Below are positions 6,693 to 53,583 of a stretch of DNA of 64,000 nucleotides, one piece after another (position 1 is the stretch's first letter; every line of letters begins with the position of its first letter). The stretch is from an uncultured Clostridia bacterium (GTDB lineage: Bacteria; Bacillota; Clostridia; Oscillospirales; Ruminococcaceae). The position numbers and the translations under genes were made by a program. The stretch is from the NCBI GenBank assembly GCA_947389015.1, contig CANDVA010000001.1, positions 132,142-196,141 on the forward strand. The letters run 5' to 3'. The notes beneath the pieces were generated by a model. The model made no database searches and was not told where the DNA came from. It saw nothing but the letters and a program-made list of their open reading frames with translations.

Positions 6693-9062
6693 TTACGCCT
6701 TAGCAGACTTTGCCGCGGGAGCTTTCTTCGCGTTTTTGCGCTCCTGCCACCAGATCCAGAGCGGACCGGCTATGCAGAGTGACGAATAGAAGCCCACCAG
6801 CATACCGATAGCAAGCGGCACGGCAAAGGACAGGATCGAGGTAACGCCCTGTACTGAACAAACGATCGCAATAGAGATCATTGCCGTAACGGTAGTCGCC
6901 GTAGTGATTATCGAGCGCGAAAGCGTCTGATTGATCGAGAGATTTACAAGCTCGCGGTCGGACACCTTGCCGCCGTGCTTTGCGCGGTTTTCACGAAGTC
7001 TGTCGTAGATGATTATAGTGTTGTTGATAGAGTAGCCGAGCAGCGTCAGGATAACCGCCATAAAGTTGGAGTCGAGAGCCATGCCCGTGAACACATACAC
7101 AGCATAGGTGAGTATTACGTCGTGGAGCAGACAGCATATAGCGATAATACCCGCGCTCCAACCGCCTATCTTCTTGAAACGGAACGCGATATATACGACC
7201 AGCAGCACAAACGCTACGACTACCGCGATCAGGCAGGAAATAAAGAACTGCGAACCCGAAGACGCGGAAACGTTTGTGGTATCCACGCTGTCAATAGTGT
7301 TATCGGGATAAGCCGCGATAAGTCCCTCGCTCACCTTTTGCAGCATACCGTCGTCCATTTTGTCATCTTGAGCAAACGATATAACGATCGTATTAAGACC
7401 GCCCGTAAAACTCGTTCCCGTCGTTACAGTAGCGCGGGGAGTGCCGAGCGCCTCAACGGTCGACTTTACGTCGTTCGTATCTATCGTTCCCGAGTAGGAG
7501 TAAGTCAAAATCGTACCGCCCTTGAAACGGATATCTACGTTTACTCCGATAATGAACGTGCAGAGCACGGTCACAGCGATAAGCGCCGCAGAGATAATAA
7601 CGAATATCTTTCTCTTGCCTACAAAGTCTACGTTGGTCTTTGCCTTTACGTTGATGTTCTGAACGGTATCCTTGCCCGTTTCGGCATCGCCGGTAAGCTC
7701 CGCCTTGGAAACGCCGAACAGCCCGGGCTTTCTGAAACACTTGAATTTAGAGAGAGAAACAGTCATAAGACGGGTCGCCCAACAAGCCATGATAAAGTTC
7801 ATGATAACGCCCGCGAGTAGTGTGTAACCAAACGAATAGACCGTGCCCTCGGTAGTAGCGCCGAACCATGTGCCGAACACCGCCATAAGGATAAGCGCGA
7901 CGATGATGACAGTAAGATTTGAATCGAGGATAGCCGTAAAGCCGCGCTGGAAACCGTTCTTTACAGCGCCGTCAATAGTGCGTCCCGCCTTAAGCTCTTC
8001 CTTTATACGCTCCGCCGAGATAACGTTCGCGTCAACGCCCATACCTATTGACAGGATAATACCTGCGATACCGGGCAGCGTGAGCGACGAAGCGTTGTTG
8101 AAACCGAAGAAGCCCGTGATAGCCGCAAACATACCCGCGACCTGACCCGTAAGCGCAACTACCGCGACAAAGCCGGGCAGACGGTAATAAACGATCATAA
8201 ATACCGCGATTATAATAAACGCGATAAGTCCCGCAAGCGCCATAGCGTCGCGAGCGCCCGTACCGAGAATAGGCGAGATAGTAGACAAGGTGTCGATCTT
8301 AAGCTTGAACGGCAGCGCGCCGCCGTTGATCTTATTCGCGAGCTCGGACGCCTCCGAGCCCGTAAAGTTGCCCGAAATAAACGCAACTCCGTCATTGATC
8401 TTTTCATTTACTTTCGGATAGCTGATACAGGTATCGTCCATCCATATCGAAATAACGTCGCCCTTTAAGCGCTCGGTAGCCTCGGCAAACGCCTCTTTGC
8501 CGCTTTCCTTAAGCTCAAGCTTTACTACCTGCTGCTTTTCCTCGCTGTTGTACCATACGGAAGCCTTCTCAACGTCCGCGCCCGTAAGGACTATCTTATC
8601 CTTGGTGTCGCCCGTAGGGAGTCCCTCGGCGTCGATCTCGTGCTTTTCGCGGAAGGTCAGCAGCGCGGTCTCGCCGATCTCGCGCACAGCCTGCTCGGGA
8701 TCGAACGACGTATCGTCGCTCTGCCACGGGAACTGCACGATTATTGCCTTGGTTGCCGCGTCTACATATACCTCGTAGTCGTTTATATTCTTTCCGACAA
8801 GGCGCTGTTCTATCATAGACTTCGCGCCGTTGAGGTCGTCCTCGGTGATGGTGTTTTCGCTTTCGTAATCCTCTGGAGCCTTAAACGTTACGTTAACGCC
8901 GCCTCGGATATCGATTCCCCATCTGATATCGTCAATTCCCCACACCCAAGAGGTTTTTATATCGCCGTAATAGGTGCGTATACCCATTGTCGAAAGCAAC
9001 GTGAACACGACTATCAGGAAAAAAACGATAAAAAACACGGGCTTTGTAATTTTACTCTTCAA
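6693..9062 (-). CDS. secDF: Protein translocase subunit SecDF (fused SecD and SecF)
   Basis: This 789-residue membrane protein combines SecD (residues 1 to about 430) and SecF (about 470-789). It shows an N-terminal membrane segment, a large extracytoplasmic domain with the SecD hallmark WGIDIRGGVNVTF, the GxxLPxxL region and the paired RND-type membrane bundles (LPGIAGIILSIGMGVDANV in SecD, LLGYSINNTIIIYDRLREN in SecF). SecDF uses the proton gradient to pull exported proteins through SecYEG. The start is TTG at 9062 after GGAGTG; no ATG is available nearby. A separate promoter and terminator mark it as a single-gene transcript. A fused SecDF is usual in Bacilli and many Clostridia. Confidence 0.95.
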   Translation of the reverse strand: MKSKITKPVFFIVFFLIVVFTLLSTMGIRTYYGDIKTSWVWGIDDIRWGIDIRGGVNVTFKAPEDYESENTITEDDLNGAKSMIEQRLVGKNINDYEVYVDAATKAIIVQFPWQSDDTSFDPEQAVREIGETALLTFREKHEIDAEGLPTGDTKDKIVLTGADVEKASVWYNSEEKQQVVKLELKESGKEAFAEATERLKGDVISIWMDDTCISYPKVNEKINDGVAFISGNFTGSEASELANKINGGALPFKLKIDTLSTISPILGTGARDAMALAGLIAFIIIAVFMIVYYRLPGFVAVVALTGQVAGMFAAITGFFGFNNASSLTLPGIAGIILSIGMGVDANVISAERIKEELKAGRTIDGAVKNGFQRGFTAILDSNLTVIIVALILMAVFGTWFGATTEGTVYSFGYTLLAGVIMNFIMACWATRLMTVSLSKFKCFRKPGLFGVSKAELTGDAETGKDTVQNINVKAKTNVDFVGKRKIFVIISAALIAVTVLCTFIIGVNVDIRFKGGTILTYSYSGTIDTNDVKSTVEALGTPRATVTTGTSFTGGLNTIVISFAQDDKMDDGMLQKVSEGLIAAYPDNTIDSVDTTNVSASSGSQFFISCLIAVVVAFVLLVVYIAFRFKKIGGWSAGIIAICCLLHDVILTYAVYVFTGMALDSNFMAVILTLLGYSINNTIIIYDRLRENRAKHGGKVSDRELVNLSINQTLSRSIITTATTVTAMISIAIVCSVQGVTSILSFAVPLAIGMLVGFYSSLCIAGPLWIWWQERKNAKKAPAAKSAKA

Positions 9063-9135
9063 ATGTTTTTCACTCCGTTCTGTTTTTCTGAATTCAGACA
9101 GGCATACCCTGCCATTTTATAATCTACATTTATCT

Positions 9136-9164
9136 ATTATAATACAAAATTACGAAATAGTCAA
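9136..9164 (-). promoter_or_regulatory. Promoter of secDF
   Basis: On the minus strand TTGACT (9159-9164), 17 bases, TATAAT (9136-9141), about 75 bases before the TTG start. Confidence 0.75.
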
Positions 9165-9227
9165 GGGCTATTTATATTTTCAATATGTATTTTTTATGAA
9201 AATGTCCGCAAAAAATCTCTTTTCCAC

Positions 9228-9256
9228 TTGAATTGTTGTGTAAATTATGTTACAAT
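9228..9256 (+). promoter_or_regulatory. Promoter of the DUF2339-like gene
   Basis: TTGAAT (9228-9233), 17 bases, TACAAT (9251-9256). The leader contains a small CCCGC/GCGGG hairpin at about 9284-9303. It is divergent from the secDF promoter. Confidence 0.7.
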
Positions 9257-9333
9257 TATAGTGTAAAGTATGGAGTTTTAGATCCCGCAGGTTCCACAGC
9301 GGGCGGCGCTTGCGTTTTAAATAAGGAGTTAAT

Positions 9334-11337
9334 ATGAACGATCCAAATAACAATCTCAACGGTCAACAAAACTATCGGCAGTCTCCTCCGCAGTCAAAGG
9401 GCGCTGTAACTGGCGGCGAGATGTTTGTCGGGATAAATCTGCTCAGCAAAATCGGCGTGGTTTTCATTATAATAGGTATAATAGCGTTTTCGGCGGCTTC
9501 GGAGGGCTTTCTGCACGTCGGAGTAAGACTGGCACTGGTGATAGCTCTGGGGCTGGTAATGCTTGGCGCGGGGGAGCTGTTCTACCGCAAGGGCTCGCCC
9601 GTATTCGCGAACGCGCTTATTTTCGGGGGTGTTGCGGAACTGTTTATCTGCTCGCTTATCGGACATTACGGTTTCCATATATTGAACGGCGGCGGCTCGA
9701 TAGGCGTGGGGCTCGGAGCGGCGGCGGTAGGAATTCTGCTGTCGGCGAGGTACAAGTCGCAGGGGCTGCTTATCGTAACCGTGCTGTTCTCAGCGCTGCC
9801 GATATTCGGCGGTCTTGACGCGGCAGCGTTCTTCGGAGCGGCGGTGTATCTGACTGCGGTACATGCGGCGAACGCAGTGATAGCCCGCAGGAGCGGATAT
9901 ACGGGGGCATACGTCACGGGAATTATCGCGGCGGTGCTTGAAACGCTTTTGCTGGATATCCCCGCCTCCGTTACGGGTATACATGATGAAAAGTTCAGTC
10001 CTGTCATCTTAGTGCTGTTTATCGTCTGCTGCGCGGTCTGCTACGCGGGAGGACTGCTGCTCGACGCGGCGCGGGAGTTCGGAAAGCTGACGAGTGGCAA
10101 GAACGCGGCGCTCTGCGTAATACTCTTCGCCGTGATACTCTATGCGGATTTTTGGCTCCGTTGGGGAATAAACGCGGTGGCTGCGGGTATCGCGCTGCTG
10201 GTGCTAGCAGTGATCTTTACGGTCGTTGCGGTGATATTCTCACTGAATTTCGGCGACGACTGCGCAGCAACGACGGTGCTGACCAACTTTATACTCATAG
10301 CCGTAACATGGGCGCTGATAGATATCACAAGCTCGCTGTTTATGCGGTATACCCTGCTCCACATCCTCGCCGCAGCGGTGCTTGTCGCGGGGCTGGTTTT
10401 CGACCGCAGACTGTTCCGCGGTTGGGGCTGTGCTCTGATCGTGCTTGCCGAGTTTCACTTCTTCGGGGTGCTGCTGTTCAACCACGATACGAGCCAGCGG
10501 CTTTTTGCGATATTTGTCAACCTTATACTGTGGTTTGGCATTATGGCGGTGTATATCGTCAAAAAGAAGCACGAAAACACCATGTTCCGTATGTATACCT
10601 TCGCGGCGTTTCTTAACGCGGGACTGCTCTGCTCGGATATGATAATGCGCTATCTCGTGGATATGTTCAACGAGATCGAAATGTGGGCAAATCCCGCGGC
10701 TAAAGCGGCGTTTTCGGCGCTGCTGTGCGCCGTGCCGTGGCTGATACTCGGATTTGTCGTCGGCAAGCTGAAATATATGAAAGGGTGGGGAATGGCTTCA
10801 TCGTTCACCCTGTATATAATCGGACTGATGAATTTGCTGTTCGCGAACGGCATTGACGCGCTCAACCGCAATATCGGAAACCACGAGCTCGGTATCGCGG
10901 GCATAATCGCGACTATCGCAGTCAACGCCGCGTCGGTGCTTCCCGTGCTGGATATGTCGCTGCAAATCAGCGGAAAAGCGCCGAAATTCTCCAAGGCGGT
11001 AGGACTGATAGTTTCGGCATACGCGCTGATGTCGCTTACTGCTATACTGGGCACAAACAATTACGTAACGTTCACAAGCTTCATCATAAGCATAATTTAT
11101 ATCGCAACGGCTGCGGTGTGGATAATTATCGGCTTCAAGCGGCTCAACGCGCTGCTAAGGCGGTTCGGTCTGGCGCTTGCGTTGCTGTCGTCGGCAAAGC
11201 TCTTTCTGTTCGATTTCCAAGGTATCAGCGATATGGGCAGAACGCTTTTGTTTATCGGCTTCGGCGTTACGCTGCTGTGCATAGCGTTCGGCTACGGAAT
11301 AGCGGAGAAACGCCTTAAAGAACGCGGCGGAAAATAA
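9334..11337 (+). CDS. Polytopic membrane protein, DUF2339-like
   Basis: This 667-residue protein has about 18-20 hydrophobic helices and a short polar N-terminus rich in Asn and Gln. The segment GINLLSKIGVVFIIIGIIAF (residues 32-51) resembles the signature of DUF2339 membrane proteins, which are large, repetitive and of unknown function. No catalytic motif is visible. The gene has its own promoter and a GGAG ribosome site, is followed by a terminator, and lies divergent from secDF. Base composition is shifted to Leu/Ala/Val codons but otherwise normal. A transport or envelope role is plausible; nothing in the sequence decides it. Confidence 0.65.
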   Translation: MNDPNNNLNGQQNYRQSPPQSKGAVTGGEMFVGINLLSKIGVVFIIIGIIAFSAASEGFLHVGVRLALVIALGLVMLGAGELFYRKGSPVFANALIFGGVAELFICSLIGHYGFHILNGGGSIGVGLGAAAVGILLSARYKSQGLLIVTVLFSALPIFGGLDAAAFFGAAVYLTAVHAANAVIARRSGYTGAYVTGIIAAVLETLLLDIPASVTGIHDEKFSPVILVLFIVCCAVCYAGGLLLDAAREFGKLTSGKNAALCVILFAVILYADFWLRWGINAVAAGIALLVLAVIFTVVAVIFSLNFGDDCAATTVLTNFILIAVTWALIDITSSLFMRYTLLHILAAAVLVAGLVFDRRLFRGWGCALIVLAEFHFFGVLLFNHDTSQRLFAIFVNLILWFGIMAVYIVKKKHENTMFRMYTFAAFLNAGLLCSDMIMRYLVDMFNEIEMWANPAAKAAFSALLCAVPWLILGFVVGKLKYMKGWGMASSFTLYIIGLMNLLFANGIDALNRNIGNHELGIAGIIATIAVNAASVLPVLDMSLQISGKAPKFSKAVGLIVSAYALMSLTAILGTNNYVTFTSFIISIIYIATAAVWIIIGFKRLNALLRRFGLALALLSSAKLFLFDFQGISDMGRTLLFIGFGVTLLCIAFGYGIAEKRLKERGGK

Positions 11338-14073: not shown

Positions 14074-15261
14074 ATGACAGAATTACTGATAAAACTATTT
14101 ATAAAGGACGGCGGCAGCGTAGAGACTCCCGCCGTCCGCTCGGCATACGGGAAAATGGCGGGCAAGGTGAGCATTGTCTGTAATATGCTGCTGTGTATCG
14201 GCAAGTTCCTCGCGGGCATGGTTTCAGGCAGCGTCTCCGTGACCGCAGACGCGGTCAACAACCTCTCCGACGCGTCGTCGGGAGTGATAAGCCTTATCGG
14301 ATTCAAGCTCTCCGAAAAGTCCGCGGACGCGGAGCACCCCTACGGTCACGGGCGATATGAATACCTGGCGGGCTTTATTGTCGCAGCGCTGATACTGATC
14401 ATCGGCGCGGAGCTGCTGCGCGACAGTATAATCAGGATCATCACTCCCGCCGAGGTCGAATTCGGCATAGTGCCTCTCGCGGTGCTTTCCGTCTCGATAT
14501 TGGTAAAGCTCTGGATGATGTTCTTCAACCGAAAGATCGGTAAAATTATAAGCTCCGAGACCCTGTCCGCCGCCGCTGCCGACAGCCGCAACGACGTTAT
14601 CTCCACATCGGCGGTGCTCGCGGCGCTGGTGATCTCGCACTTCTGCTCCGTCGAGCTGGACGGCATTATGGGCGCGGCAGTCGCTGTGTTTATCCTGTAC
14701 AGCGGCATAGGTCTGGTAAGAGACGCTCTCGACCCGCTGCTGGGCAAAGCACCGAGCGCGGAGCTGGTCGAAAAAATACGCGAAAAAATACTCTCCTATG
14801 AGGGTATACTCGGAACTCACGACCTGATGATACACGATTACGGTCCGGGGAGGCAGTTTGCTTCCGTACACGTCGAGGTGCCCGCTGAAATGCCGCTTGT
14901 GGATTGCCACGAGATAATTGACGCAATAGAGCGCGACTTCCTCCGCGAGGGTATGAATATGCTTGTCCACCCTGACCCGATAGTCTCGGGCGGCTCTGCG
15001 GGACAGCTAAACGCCGAGCTTAACGAGATAGCGGGTAAGATTGACGAGCGCGTTTCAGTCCACGATATACGCGTGGTGCGCTGTCCCGATGGAGAAAAGG
15101 TGATATTTGACTGCGTTCTTCCGCCCGACAGCGGTCTCGAGGAGGCGGCGCTCACAGAGGAAATAACGCGCTTTCTGCGTATAAATCACCCGAACTGCCG
15201 CTGTATAATAACGTTCGACAACGGCTACGCCAGCATACCGAAGTCGTCGGACGAAAATTAA
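14074..15261 (+). CDS. Cation diffusion facilitator (CDF) metal transporter
   Basis: The 395-residue product (start ATG at 14074; an upstream in-frame start at 14020 lacks a ribosome site) has the six CDF membrane helices with metal-site Asp residues in SVTADAVNNLSDASSG (TM2) and AAAADSRNDVISTS (TM5), and a His-rich GHGRYEY loop. The cytoplasmic ferredoxin-like domain (after residue 210) contains VHVEVPAEM and HPDPIV. A further extension after about residue 290 makes the protein longer than the usual 300, as seen in many clostridial CDF proteins. CDF proteins export Zn2+, Mn2+, Fe2+ or Co2+. It stands just upstream of the cobalamin riboswitch but is not under its control. Confidence 0.93.
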   Translation: MTELLIKLFIKDGGSVETPAVRSAYGKMAGKVSIVCNMLLCIGKFLAGMVSGSVSVTADAVNNLSDASSGVISLIGFKLSEKSADAEHPYGHGRYEYLAGFIVAALILIIGAELLRDSIIRIITPAEVEFGIVPLAVLSVSILVKLWMMFFNRKIGKIISSETLSAAAADSRNDVISTSAVLAALVISHFCSVELDGIMGAAVAVFILYSGIGLVRDALDPLLGKAPSAELVEKIREKILSYEGILGTHDLMIHDYGPGRQFASVHVEVPAEMPLVDCHEIIDAIERDFLREGMNMLVHPDPIVSGGSAGQLNAELNEIAGKIDERVSVHDIRVVRCPDGEKVIFDCVLPPDSGLEEAALTEEITRFLRINHPNCRCIITFDNGYASIPKSSDEN

Positions 15262-15265
15262 ACTA

Positions 15266-15294
15266 TTGACAACCGCGGAAAAAAGTACTATAAT
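15266..15294 (+). promoter_or_regulatory. Promoter of the cobalamin-riboswitch transcript
   Basis: TTGACA (15266-15271), 17 bases, TATAAT (15289-15294): a full consensus promoter starting immediately after the CDF stop codon and leading into the riboswitch. Confidence 0.85.
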
Positions 15295-15304
15295 ATATTC
15301 GGCG

Positions 15305-15562
15305 GAAAACTCGGCGCGGCAATGTGATATATCATATCACGGAACACGGTGAAAATCCGTGACAGTCCCCGCTGCCGTGAAACGGTTGTGTTTGTGTCAT
15401 AGGGCGAAAGCTTGGGTCACTGAGGCGAAAGCCGTGGGAAGGCTTGGCGCAAACACGAAATTTGAGCAGTTGCCCCAAAAGGGCGGCTGGACGCCGCCCA
15501 ACTAAGGGCAACAGCGCAGACACGCTAACCGTAAGTCGGAAGACCTGTCAGTCGAGACCGTC
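15305..15562 (+). ncRNA. Cobalamin (adenosylcobalamin-class) riboswitch
   Basis: The conserved core is plainly readable: GGAACACGGTGAAAATCCGT then GACAGTCCCCGCTGCCGTGA (15341-15380), the B12-box-like block TCACTGAGGCGAAAGCCGTG with GGGAAGG (about 15417-15443), and the closing GTAAGTCGGAAGACCTGTCA (15531-15550). A long peripheral hairpin (GCGCAAACACG and a GGGCGGC/GCCGCCC stem) fills the middle. No U-tailed terminator follows, and the aptamer ends about 16 bases before the GGAGG of the first gene, so control is probably at translation start through the ribosome site. High B12 is expected to turn the downstream genes off. Confidence 0.95.
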
Positions 15563-15590
15563 AAATAAATATATTATCGGAGGAATAATG

Positions 15591-16409
15591 ATGAAAAAGG
15601 CAAAAATTCTTGCAGTACTTGCCGCCGCGGCGACTGCTGCGGCAACCTCGCTGTGCGCGTTCGCGCAGCCGGCGGAAAAGGGAACGGTCTACTTTGCGGC
15701 AGTAAAGTCGACGATCGGGCAGGGCGTTTGCGTCGAGCCCGTGGCAGTACCGTTCTACGAAGGCGAAAGCGGTATCGACGTGGTAAAACGCGCCGCCGAG
15801 GTGACGGTCACGGAGAGCGAATACGGCGACTATATCACCGCGTTCAAGGACACGGACAACGGCGCGGACGTTCCCGAGGAGATCAAGGCGGTATGCCCCG
15901 AAATGACGGGCAGGAGCACCGATGGACAGCTTACGGCGCTCGACTACACTCCCGAAAGCGGTTGGAGCTACTTCCTTAACGGCGAGTACGCGCAGGTCGG
16001 CATAAGCGGCTACGAACCCGCCGACGGCGACGTTCTGGAGTACAGATTTACGGTATACGGCTACGGCGCGGATCTCGGTCAGGACAACTCGAGCTGGGGC
16101 GGCGCAGCGGCTCTCGTGCCCGCGGTCAACGCGACGGAGCTGATAAAGACCGCGGCGCAGGCGGACAAGCCTCTTCCCGAATACACGGCGGCGGTAGAAA
16201 CGCTCGGCAAGTTCGGCGCGGCACAGAGCGAACTTGACGAAACGGCAAACGCGCTTAAAAACGCGCAGAGTGCTCCCGAAGCTCCCGAGACGTCAACTAC
16301 GCCCGAAGCGCCCTCAAATGTAGACACGGGCGTTGAAAGCGTTGCGGCGGTATTCGGTGCGGCAGTACTCGCGACGGGTATGCTGGCGGTTTCCCGCAAG
16401 CGCGGATAA
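15591..16409 (+). CDS. Exported DUF4430 (transcobalamin C-terminal-like) protein with cell-wall anchor-like tail, B12-regulated
   Basis: The start at 15591 is seven bases after GGAGG (a second ATG at 15588 is also possible). Residues 1-25 are a signal peptide ending CAFA. Residues 30-160 match the DUF4430 pattern: a beta-strand pair, GIDVVKRAAE, then GWSYFLNGEYAQVGISGYEP and DGDVLEYRF. DUF4430 is the beta domain that closes over B12 in human transcobalamin and intrinsic factor. A Pro/Thr/Glu-rich linker leads to SNVDTG, a hydrophobic helix and RKRG, which resembles the NPxTG-helix-KKR surface anchors of related Clostridia. Direct cobalamin-riboswitch control makes a surface B12/corrinoid-binding role the best guess. 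No enzyme motif is visible. Confidence 0.85.
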   Translation: MKKAKILAVLAAAATAAATSLCAFAQPAEKGTVYFAAVKSTIGQGVCVEPVAVPFYEGESGIDVVKRAAEVTVTESEYGDYITAFKDTDNGADVPEEIKAVCPEMTGRSTDGQLTALDYTPESGWSYFLNGEYAQVGISGYEPADGDVLEYRFTVYGYGADLGQDNSSWGGAAALVPAVNATELIKTAAQADKPLPEYTAAVETLGKFGAAQSELDETANALKNAQSAPEAPETSTTPEAPSNVDTGVESVAAVFGAAVLATGMLAVSRKRG

Positions 16410-16418
16410 TAGTAACAA

Positions 16419-18047
16419 ATGAAAAAAATGATCAAGGCGGTTTGCATTGCGTTAATTATCGCGGTGCAAACCGTATTCTGCATAACGGCGCATGCCGCCG
16501 ATAACTTTGACAGCGCCGGGATCGTCCGCGAGCTTTTCGCGCTGAATATGAGCGGGCGCGGCGTTGACGCTTTTTATGACGGTCTGCGGCTTGGCAGCGC
16601 CGACTGGACGGTTATCTGCCGCGCTCGGTTGTACGGCGCGGAGAACTCCTCGGAGTTCGTGGAAAGAGCGCTTGATTCGGCGAATGAGCTCATCAATTCC
16701 GACGGCTTTGTAACGCCGACCGAGCTTCAGCGCACGGCGATAGTGCTTGCGGCGTTCGGAGAGTGCTCTCACGAGCTGATCAACGCCGCCGCTTACTGTA
16801 ATATCGACCTTGACAGGCAGGGGCTGAACGCTTGGATATGGGCGCTCACGGCGGCAAATTGCAGCGGTCTCGAGCCCGATAACGACGCGGTTTATACGCG
16901 CTTGCGGCTCGCGGAGGGTATCATCTCGCGGCAGCTCTCCGACGGCGGATTTGCTCTTCGCGGCAGCTCCGCGGACGCGGATATGACCGCCGCCGCAATA
17001 ACCGCGCTTGCTCCTCTCGGAGATGATGAAAATGTCCGAAATGCGTTTGATAAGGCCGTTTCCGCACTATCGGGATTACAGCGGGAGAACGGCGGATTTC
17101 TCTCGCTTGGCAGCGAAACGAGTGAGAGCGCCGCGCAGGCTGTTATCGCGTTCACGGCAGCGGGAATTGACGATGAACGGCTTGACAATGCGGTCGCGGC
17201 GCTGATGAAATTCAGATGTGAGGACGGCGGTTTCGCTCACAATGTTGGAGAAAAACCCAACAAAATGGCGACCGTACAGGCATTGCAGGCGTTTACCGCG
17301 CTGTCTCTCAAGGAGCGCGGCGAGCCGCTGTTCGGAAAGCCGAATGATATCGCGGAGCAGCCCGATACGAGCGAGGTCTCCGAAAGCGTTTCCGTTGGTA
17401 CGTCCGCGGAACGCTCAGAAAATACTTCGGAAATTGAAATAAAGGAAACACCTAAGCCGACCGTTACGGGATTTCATATAAAGCTTACCATCTCGTCGGC
17501 GCTTGTAATTATCGGTATTGTTATGCTGATAGCAGCTGCTGTAAGACGCGGAAAACGCGCCGCTGCGACAGGAATAATACTGCTTATCTTATCGGGAGCG
17601 GTATGGCTTCTGAATATCAAAACGCCCGACGAATATTACGCGGAAACTCCAGAAAACGGGATAACCGTGCGAGTCGGCGCGGAATGTACGAGCGTGCTGG
17701 AACGTCTGGGCGATATCGACGAGAGCGTAAACCCGCTGTCCGTTATACCCGAGGACGGCATAATACTGCCGCTTGACGATATATCGCTCCCCGAGGACGC
17801 GACCGCGTTCGACGCGCTGATCGAGGCGGCGAGGGCAAGCCGTGTGCGCGTTGACTACGTCGGCTCGTCCTACGGCGTCTATGTGTGCGGGATAGGGTTC
17901 GTTTACGAGTTTGGCTTTGGGAGCGAAAGCGGCTGGACGTACCGCATAAACGGCTCCGTTCCGCAGATGTCCGCAGGAGCGTATGAACTTTCGGACGGTG
18001 ATACGGTGGAATTCATATACACCTGCGAATTGGGTTACGCCGACTAA
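16419..18047 (+). CDS. Transcobalamin-like membrane protein: alpha-toroid repeats, membrane hairpin, DUF4430 domain
   Basis: The 542-residue product has a signal peptide (1-26), then prenyltransferase/squalene-cyclase-like helical repeats (about 30-305) with three DGGF/NGGF turns at residues 175-178, 224-227 and 269-272. An acidic linker follows (305-350), two close membrane helices (357-375 and 384-399) and a C-terminal DUF4430 domain (about 455-540, with SGWTYRINGSVPQMSAGAYE). Human intrinsic factor and transcobalamin combine the same two modules, a helical barrel and a beta domain, with B12 between them. The predicted topology puts both modules outside. The gene begins nine bases after the previous stop with no clear ribosome site, suggesting translational coupling under the same riboswitch. 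Corrinoid capture is inferred, not shown. Confidence 0.85.
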   Translation: MKKMIKAVCIALIIAVQTVFCITAHAADNFDSAGIVRELFALNMSGRGVDAFYDGLRLGSADWTVICRARLYGAENSSEFVERALDSANELINSDGFVTPTELQRTAIVLAAFGECSHELINAAAYCNIDLDRQGLNAWIWALTAANCSGLEPDNDAVYTRLRLAEGIISRQLSDGGFALRGSSADADMTAAAITALAPLGDDENVRNAFDKAVSALSGLQRENGGFLSLGSETSESAAQAVIAFTAAGIDDERLDNAVAALMKFRCEDGGFAHNVGEKPNKMATVQALQAFTALSLKERGEPLFGKPNDIAEQPDTSEVSESVSVGTSAERSENTSEIEIKETPKPTVTGFHIKLTISSALVIIGIVMLIAAAVRRGKRAAATGIILLILSGAVWLLNIKTPDEYYAETPENGITVRVGAECTSVLERLGDIDESVNPLSVIPEDGIILPLDDISLPEDATAFDALIEAARASRVRVDYVGSSYGVYVCGIGFVYEFGFGSESGWTYRINGSVPQMSAGAYELSDGDTVEFIYTCELGYAD

Positions 18048-18069
18048 CGGCGCGAAAGGAGAGAATATT

Positions 18070-18243
18070 TTGGCAACGAATTGCGACGAATGTGTGAATT
18101 ACGTATACGACGAGGAATGCGGCTATTACATCTGTCTTGTCAATCTCGACGAGGACGAGATGTACCGCTTTCTGCAAGGCACAAACTACGACTGCCCGTA
18201 TTACGAGCGCGACGACGACTATTTTCTCGCGAAAAAACAATAG
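18070..18243 (+). CDS. Small Cys-rich protein, DUF6472-like
   Basis: A TTG start at 18070, eight bases after AAGGAG, gives a 57-residue protein beginning LATNCDECVNYVYDEECGYY. It has five cysteines (C5, C8, C17, C22, C42) and many acidic residues, matching my memory of the DUF6472 small proteins common in Clostridia. A CxxC with later cysteines suggests a bound metal such as zinc. It lies 22 bases after the transcobalamin-like gene, so it may be read from the same B12-controlled transcript. Function is unknown. Confidence 0.75.
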   Translation: MATNCDECVNYVYDEECGYYICLVNLDEDEMYRFLQGTNYDCPYYERDDDYFLAKKQ

Positions 18244-53267: not shown

Positions 53268-53484
53268 ATCACTTTTTCTGCCACCGGTAGAAAAAGTGAT
53301 TTATCGGTGATTTTGCCAACAGGCAAAATCACCGATTTGGGAAAAAACGTGGCACAGGTGTCCTTGTTTTTCCCCAAACCTTTTTAGCGCTTTTTCATAT
53401 GCCGCTACGCGGCGTTTTGGGCTGCCGCCCGAACCCGGCAAGGGCTCTGCCCTTGCATCCCGCCAAAGGGACCAGTCCCTTTGG
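53268..53484. repeat. Block of six consecutive hairpins (repeat-like element)
   Basis: Perfect stems occur in series: 53268-53279/53289-53300 (12 bp), 53303-53317/53322-53336 (15 bp), a G3A6/T5C3 stem at 53339-53374, GCCGC/GCGGC at 53401-53413, GCAAGGGC/GCCCTTGC at 53438-53456 and CCAAAGGGA/TCCCTTTGG at 53463-53484. The 53215-53583 gap has no credible gene. The composition (CCCGGCAAGGGCTCTGCCC and similar) recalls intergenic repeats seen in gut Firmicutes genomes; an RNA or REP-like role cannot be excluded. Confidence 0.7.
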
Positions 53485-53583
53485 AATCCCGATTTTTTAG
53501 TCATAACATTACTGTGCTAAATTCTGATTTGCACTATCTCCTAAACAAAATCAAGCCCCCAAAACGGGAGGCTTGATAACTTT

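Follow-up and report, generated by a model that had tools for sequence, protein, structure and literature searches.

Organization of the operon

The window considered here is a stretch of 64,000 nucleotides from the draft genome of an uncultured Clostridia bacterium of the Ruminococcaceae (2.9 Mb in 49 contigs, 96 % complete). On the forward strand of the window, at 15266-18047, lies an operon with a probable role in vitamin B12 scavenging: a promoter and a cobalamin riboswitch are followed by two genes of the same strand, ORF1 and ORF2, with 9 bases between them. These two are the only DUF4430 genes found in the draft genome, and the riboswitch is the single cobalamin riboswitch found in it. 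The features of the operon are the following (lengths and positions of proteins in amino acids, aa):

15266..15294, forward strand: sigma-70 type promoter, TTGACA-17-TATAAT, agreeing with the consensus at 12/12 positions
15304..15566, forward strand: aptamer of a cobalamin riboswitch (RF00174, 48.9 bits, gathering score 31.5), containing a long insertion
15579..15583, forward strand: ribosome-binding site GGAGG, seen in the sequence directly 3' of the aptamer
15588..16409, forward strand: ORF1, 273 aa, with a signal peptide (read from the sequence), a DUF4430 domain (Pfam match), a linker, and an anchor-like C-terminal tail
16419..18047, forward strand: ORF2, 542 aa, a transcobalamin-like surface protein (Pfam domains, structure model, structure searches)
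16596..17318, forward strand: alpha/alpha toroid of ORF2, about aa 60-300 (PF00432, Prenyltrans, 35.0 bits, cut-off 26.5, aa 130-296; model)
17469..17603, forward strand: transmembrane hairpin of ORF2 separating the toroid from the beta domain, about aa 351-395 (helices 351-376 and 379-395 of the model)
17640..18038, forward strand: C-terminal DUF4430 beta domain of ORF2, about aa 408-540 (PF14478, 47.9 bits, aa 460-535; model)

A preliminary description of this DNA had claimed a consensus promoter and an intact cobalamin riboswitch, and both were borne out. Two promoter-like sites are present in 15200-15620, compared with a mean of 0.4 in shuffled sequences. The RF00174 match lies above the Rfam cut-off (E 3.6e-9 for 64 kb) and aligns model positions 1-189 of 189. 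Its score is modest, the model alignment showing, besides the long insertion, several outer-helix pairs that are non-standard. The RNA fold of 15300-15600 has a z-score of -4.1 against shuffles. As the GGAGG sequence abuts the aptamer and the sole terminator-like site of the leader (15374-15386) is located inside the aptamer, the leader sequence suggests that control by the riboswitch is likelier to be exerted at translation than by termination.

The description of ORF1 as an exported protein with DUF4430 and an anchor-like tail was supported as to the domain and the tail, export resting on the signal peptide listed above. The DUF4430 match (32.3 bits, cut-off 23.8) is located at aa 119-154 and covers only profile positions 35-70 of 72. 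The C-terminal tail consists of xxTGxE (often SPxTG) rather than LPxTG, followed by a hydrophobic stretch and a basic end. The T, G, and E are invariant in all 13 aligned copies. We take this tail to resemble a sorting signal.

Domains and predicted fold of ORF2

The architecture proposed earlier for ORF2, toroid repeats followed by a membrane hairpin and a C-terminal DUF4430 domain, was confirmed by the Pfam matches and the model helices. QxxDGGF-like repeats are present in the translation. The hairpin helices are hydrophobic, their membrane nature being read from the sequence. H274, D188, E236, W506, and other residues are invariant in 45/45 aligned sequences.

When the ORF2 model was compared with the PDB using Foldseek, the 15 best matches were all chains of transcobalamin, intrinsic factor, or haptocorrin. 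The barrel-plus-beta arrangement of these carriers, against which the model was to be checked, is thus present in the predicted structure of ORF2. The alignments to the B12 carriers cover both domains, so that the whole two-domain fold is matched, and among the matches listed in both structure searches the B12 carriers alone align to the model over both domains.

With the toroid taken alone, drimenyl diphosphate synthase and squalene-hopene cyclase were the best matches, both by sequence and by Z. This would fit an exported enzyme with a toroid of the terpene-cyclase or glycan-enzyme type, in which case the riboswitch would be there for another reason. The full-length structure matches are B12 carriers, however, and relatives of ORF2 are accompanied in many genomes by cobalamin riboswitches and a CbrT-type energy-coupling factor (ECF) transporter, which makes an enzyme very improbable.

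Transcobalamin, intrinsic factor, and haptocorrin are typically soluble secreted carriers without a membrane anchor. ORF2, whose two domains are separated by the hydrophobic helices 351-376 and 379-395, is not a soluble secreted protein of this kind and has, because of this hairpin, been filed not as a member of the carrier family but as a protein that would work like one.

Spread of the gene pair and its riboswitches

ORF2 or one of its domains was matched in 42 of 100 genomes, the own genome included. From 172 confirmed places, 80 loci were taken for comparison. By their record titles, these loci belong to Clostridia, Oscillospiraceae, Lachnospiraceae, Paenibacillus, Cohnella, Calidifontibacillus, Peptoniphilus, and Urinicoccus, and many are metagenome-assembled genomes from animal guts.

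ORF1 and ORF2 are adjacent in the 16 loci of the genus that were compared (the window included), although in L008 the contig ends within ORF1. RF00174 was found upstream of the pair in 11 of these 16. At two of the loci where no riboswitch was seen (L008 and L046), the contig begins about 130 bases or less from ORF1. L038, L039, and L042 gave no RF00174 match even at E 0.05, and a search of the genomes carrying L038 and L039 (G015 and G004, respectively) yielded no RF00174 match anywhere. Fuzzy matches to the B12 box in L038, L039, and L042 were scattered and were left uncounted. Searches of 18 more distant loci detected a cobalamin-type riboswitch in 11 (RF00174 in ten, AdoCbl-II in L048); none was seen at the curated score in the other seven (L050, L057, L060, L061, L062, L064, and L068). 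From the 80 loci, 23 were sampled for riboswitches, 16 by a length limit and seven for spread; RF00174 was present in 12 (7/16 and 5/7, respectively), and several of the other loci start close to the genes.

In L119, L130, L132, L134, and L142, the toroid is encoded by one gene and the DUF4430 beta domain by a neighbouring one, as if forming a two-protein clamp. A single clamp protein is therefore not universal. Together with ORF1 of the window, which carries DUF4430 without a toroid, this splitting could speak for the alternative that both proteins take part in B12 uptake as accessory scaffolds, positioning or gating the importer or binding the carrier of another organism, with no B12 held between the domains. 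Such a role is considered unlikely, given that the split genes remain neighbours and that B12 carriers alone, among the matches listed, span both domains of ORF2.

Giant proteins of about 1540-2060 aa, in which two toroids are combined with several DUF4430 repeats, were observed in Paenibacillus species and Calidifontibacillus. They lie beside ECF genes in L147 (6770-12961, with ten DUF4430 repeats), L143, L145, L146, and L151, and in L139 and L122 without ECF genes in reach.

Association with a CbrT-like ECF importer

In many relatives, the genes for the toroid and DUF4430 lie beside genes for EcfT, a double ECF ATPase, and a small membrane protein. The latter is an ECF S component, as PF07155 was matched above cut-off in all three copies scanned. 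The best solved relative of a profile of 19 such S components was 6fnp, the structure of ECF-CbrT (82.8 bits; the next match scored 25.8). CbrT was reportedly predicted in a paper of 2009. In the passages available from PMC5997447 (eLife, 2018), 6FNP is ECF-CbrT, a vitamin B12 importer of Lactobacillus delbrueckii.

The 80 loci were divided into the first 13, which are bare-pair loci on contigs of genus members, and 67 others, which may hold genus members with ECF-bearing clusters. No ECF genes were found within 8 kb of the 13 bare pairs. Among the 67 others, EcfT, the ATPases, and the S component were all located within 8 kb in 47, and at least EcfT in 52. Where the sequence continued for 5 kb or more behind the toroid (46 of the 67 loci), all three ECF parts were seen in 38 and none in eight.

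A gene-by-genome comparison was made with strong S matches, defined as E <1e-50 in the genus and <1e-30 outside it (weaker ones, of about 1e-4 to 1e-8, were left uncounted). In the 43 genomes of the genus, the own one included, a strong CbrT-like S component was present in 19 of 22 with the receptor versus one of 21 without (p 4e-8). In other genera of the family and order (57 genomes), it was present in 16 of 20 versus five of 37 (p 1e-6). These p values overstate independence because the genomes are related. The S gene is on the contig of the receptor in six genus genomes, and on a different contig in 13 of 15 genus relatives with a bare pair. No S match was obtained in the own genome, G026, or G037. 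The earlier suggestion that the receptor serves an ECF importer encoded elsewhere thus stands for relatives, in most of which the CbrT-like S gene either adjoins the receptor or is found on another contig; in the own genome the CbrT-like gene was not found.

Inspection by eye of the 13 loci of the genus in which the CbrT-like S gene is on another contig revealed that in 12 of them it is preceded by a gene for one of a set of proteins that look alike and carry a membrane segment at the N-terminus (L215:10420-11709 and alike in L216 and L218-L227). Ten of these proteins are 413-463 aa long, one at a contig start is 333 aa (L223), and one is 547 aa (L226). The two copies scanned gave no Pfam match. 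Other, shorter S-like components were seen at about 1 kb or less from cobalamin riboswitches in receptor-free genomes (L234:5175-5711 in G001 and L233:4991-5644 in G016). Gut-1 RNA (RF01706, 55 bits, gathering score 50) lies within an ECF-receptor cluster at L126:3121-3206.

Probable uptake and use of B12 in the genome and the genus

A CbiQ-type ECF module with ATPase domains was found in the own genome, as was a MetH-type enzyme in which a methyltransferase domain is combined with domains binding pterin and B12; the genome therefore has a use for B12. MetH-type enzymes require a complete cobamide, which may argue against the alternative that the system imports another corrinoid or a precursor (cobinamide, other cobamides) instead of B12 itself. 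This alternative would agree with the uptake of cobinamide besides cobalamin by L. delbrueckii CbrT (available passages of PMC5997447) and with the broad sensitivity of cobalamin riboswitches to corrinoid cofactors announced in the title of PMC9600662; on balance it is regarded as quite improbable.

A 100-base match to a gene near the S gene of G029, a relative, is located at the end of contig C45 of the own genome. Beyond this match no further synteny was found, so that neither a gap in the assembly nor loss of the S gene was shown. The gene that precedes the S gene in G029 was also not found in the own genome. A 57-base element of the window (53438-53494, reverse strand) occurs at full length in 14 places of the own genome, with 89-93 % identity, and also directly behind the S gene of G029; it is a dispersed repeat of the genus.

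The BtuC-type permease FecCD was searched for, together with DUF6472 (see below), in 44 genomes, among them 27 of the 43 of the genus. In these 27, the permease was present in one of 15 genomes with the receptor versus eight of 12 without (p 0.003, with the same reservation about relatedness). In five of the eight receptor-free genomes (G006, G009, G013, G022, and G024), the permease gene has a cobalamin riboswitch at a distance of about 4 kb or less, and the same holds for G012, which has both receptor and permease. It looks as if receptor/CbrT and the BtuC-type permease are two exchangeable routes of B12 uptake in this genus.

In G034, a genus member lacking the receptor pair, a BtuF-like protein (PF01497, 102 bits) is encoded in the region of the cobalamin riboswitch, along with two small surface proteins whose NEAT-domain matches are weak (19.9 and 18.3 bits, the cut-off being 32.8; L230:5260-6012 and 9005-9589). 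Similar small proteins were seen by eye near riboswitches in L229, L231, L164, and L166; the L229 copy was scanned and had no Pfam match. These may possibly be another unrecognised type of B12 surface protein.

The gene downstream of the operon

One further gene follows ORF2:

18070..18243, forward strand: ORF3, DUF6472, downstream neighbour (81.1 bits, cut-off 27)

The preliminary description had attached this protein to the system, which was not borne out. DUF6472 occurs in one copy per genome in all 27 genus genomes searched, whether the receptor is present or not, and adjoins the ORF1-ORF2 pair in six of 16 pair loci. It was therefore rejected as a component and is seen as a neighbour only.

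Comparison with known systems

In the animal carriers transcobalamin, intrinsic factor, and haptocorrin, as in ORF2, a beta domain at the C-terminus comes after an alpha/alpha barrel. Unlike these, ORF2 is bacterial, anchored by a hairpin between its domains, and under riboswitch control, and no sequence similarity to them was detected. In animal TCN proteins, DUF4430 has been placed C-terminally (PMC4350170, in the part available).

ECF-CbrT is the closest solved relative of the receptor-associated S component. The cbrT gene of L. delbrueckii lies with nrdJ, cbrS, and pduO (available passages of PMC5997447). In contrast to that system, the one described here has an added two-domain surface receptor, and its S gene is, in the genus of the window, mostly located on another contig or not found.

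The SCO2321 and SCO2322 families of NCBIfam are matched weakly (29.9 bits for ORF2 and 11.5 bits for ORF1, with cut-offs of 300 and 85 bits, respectively). The ribonucleotide reductase RtpR is B12-dependent. In the passages available from PMC9963975, a protein of Lacticaseibacillus rhamnosus is named 'additional lipoprotein component of putative cobalamin ECF transporter'; a separate entry is a DUF4430 gene located near rtpR. The name in the first entry already ties a further surface lipoprotein to cobalamin ECF transport, and in the second DUF4430 is encoded close to a ribonucleotide reductase gene, so that the link of an extra surface protein to cobalamin ECF transport had been predicted before; a toroid, a riboswitch, or the transcobalamin fold are not discussed in those passages. 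A literature search, thin on subscription journals, yielded no description of a bacterial toroid-plus-DUF4430 receptor of transcobalamin fold. The role is partly anticipated by a database label; the receptor design itself is without description in the literature searched.

BtuG of Bacteroides has a beta-propeller fold. According to the passages available from PMC6143338, it does the job proposed here for the operon, capture of B12 at the surface ahead of a transporter; it differs in being a Bacteroides lipoprotein that associates with BtuB.

Interpretation

The riboswitch match, the domain matches, the fold predicted for ORF2, and the association of the genes with a CbrT-like S component together point to an operon for corrinoid (vitamin B12) scavenging, in which ORF2 is a transcobalamin-like surface receptor handing B12 to a CbrT-type ECF importer. 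We give this reading a probability of about 0.76, and the first interpretation of the locus is largely supported. Several results weigh against it. The operon in the window has no gene for a CbrT-like S component, and none was found in the 49-contig, 96 % complete draft of the own genome. The structure model of ORF1 is poor (pLDDT 39.6), and the TM-scores of the ORF2 matches are moderate. A profile of ORF2 found no animal B12 carrier at E up to 1, nor did a profile of 59 DUF4430 domains at E up to 10. The best matches of the DUF4430 profile, to a BIR domain at E 0.7, were taken as chance.

From these results a B12-binding site, a topology, a hand-off, and an importer in the organism itself may be proposed. 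Low cellular B12 would relieve the riboswitch, upon which ORF1 and ORF2 would be made, exported, and kept on the surface. ORF2 would be anchored in the membrane with the toroid and the DUF4430 beta domain both outside the cell and the hairpin between them. The corrinoid would most likely be clamped between toroid and beta domain, much as by intrinsic factor. ORF1, as a second surface-anchored DUF4430 protein, would probably catch or shuttle the ligand, which would then pass to the CbrT-type S component and enter through the ECF importer.

A wider proposal is made tentatively, with less than even confidence: a riboswitch-controlled two-domain clamp feeding CbrT-type ECF importers in Clostridia, Paenibacillus, and relatives may be the bacterial counterpart of the animal B12 carriers, which could descend from such receptors. 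Separate alpha and beta genes, the fusion with a membrane hairpin, and the long multi-domain proteins would then be forms of this clamp.

The capture of B12 before import in Gram-positive gut bacteria is little described in the literature searched. If the proposed role of ORF2 is correct and such receptors are widespread, this would account for a large number of DUF4430 and toroid proteins that lack an assigned function, and CbrT-type importers would gain a surface capture step comparable to that of BtuG in Bacteroides. The finding would also bear on the competition for B12 with the host and would hint at the origin of the intrinsic factor fold.

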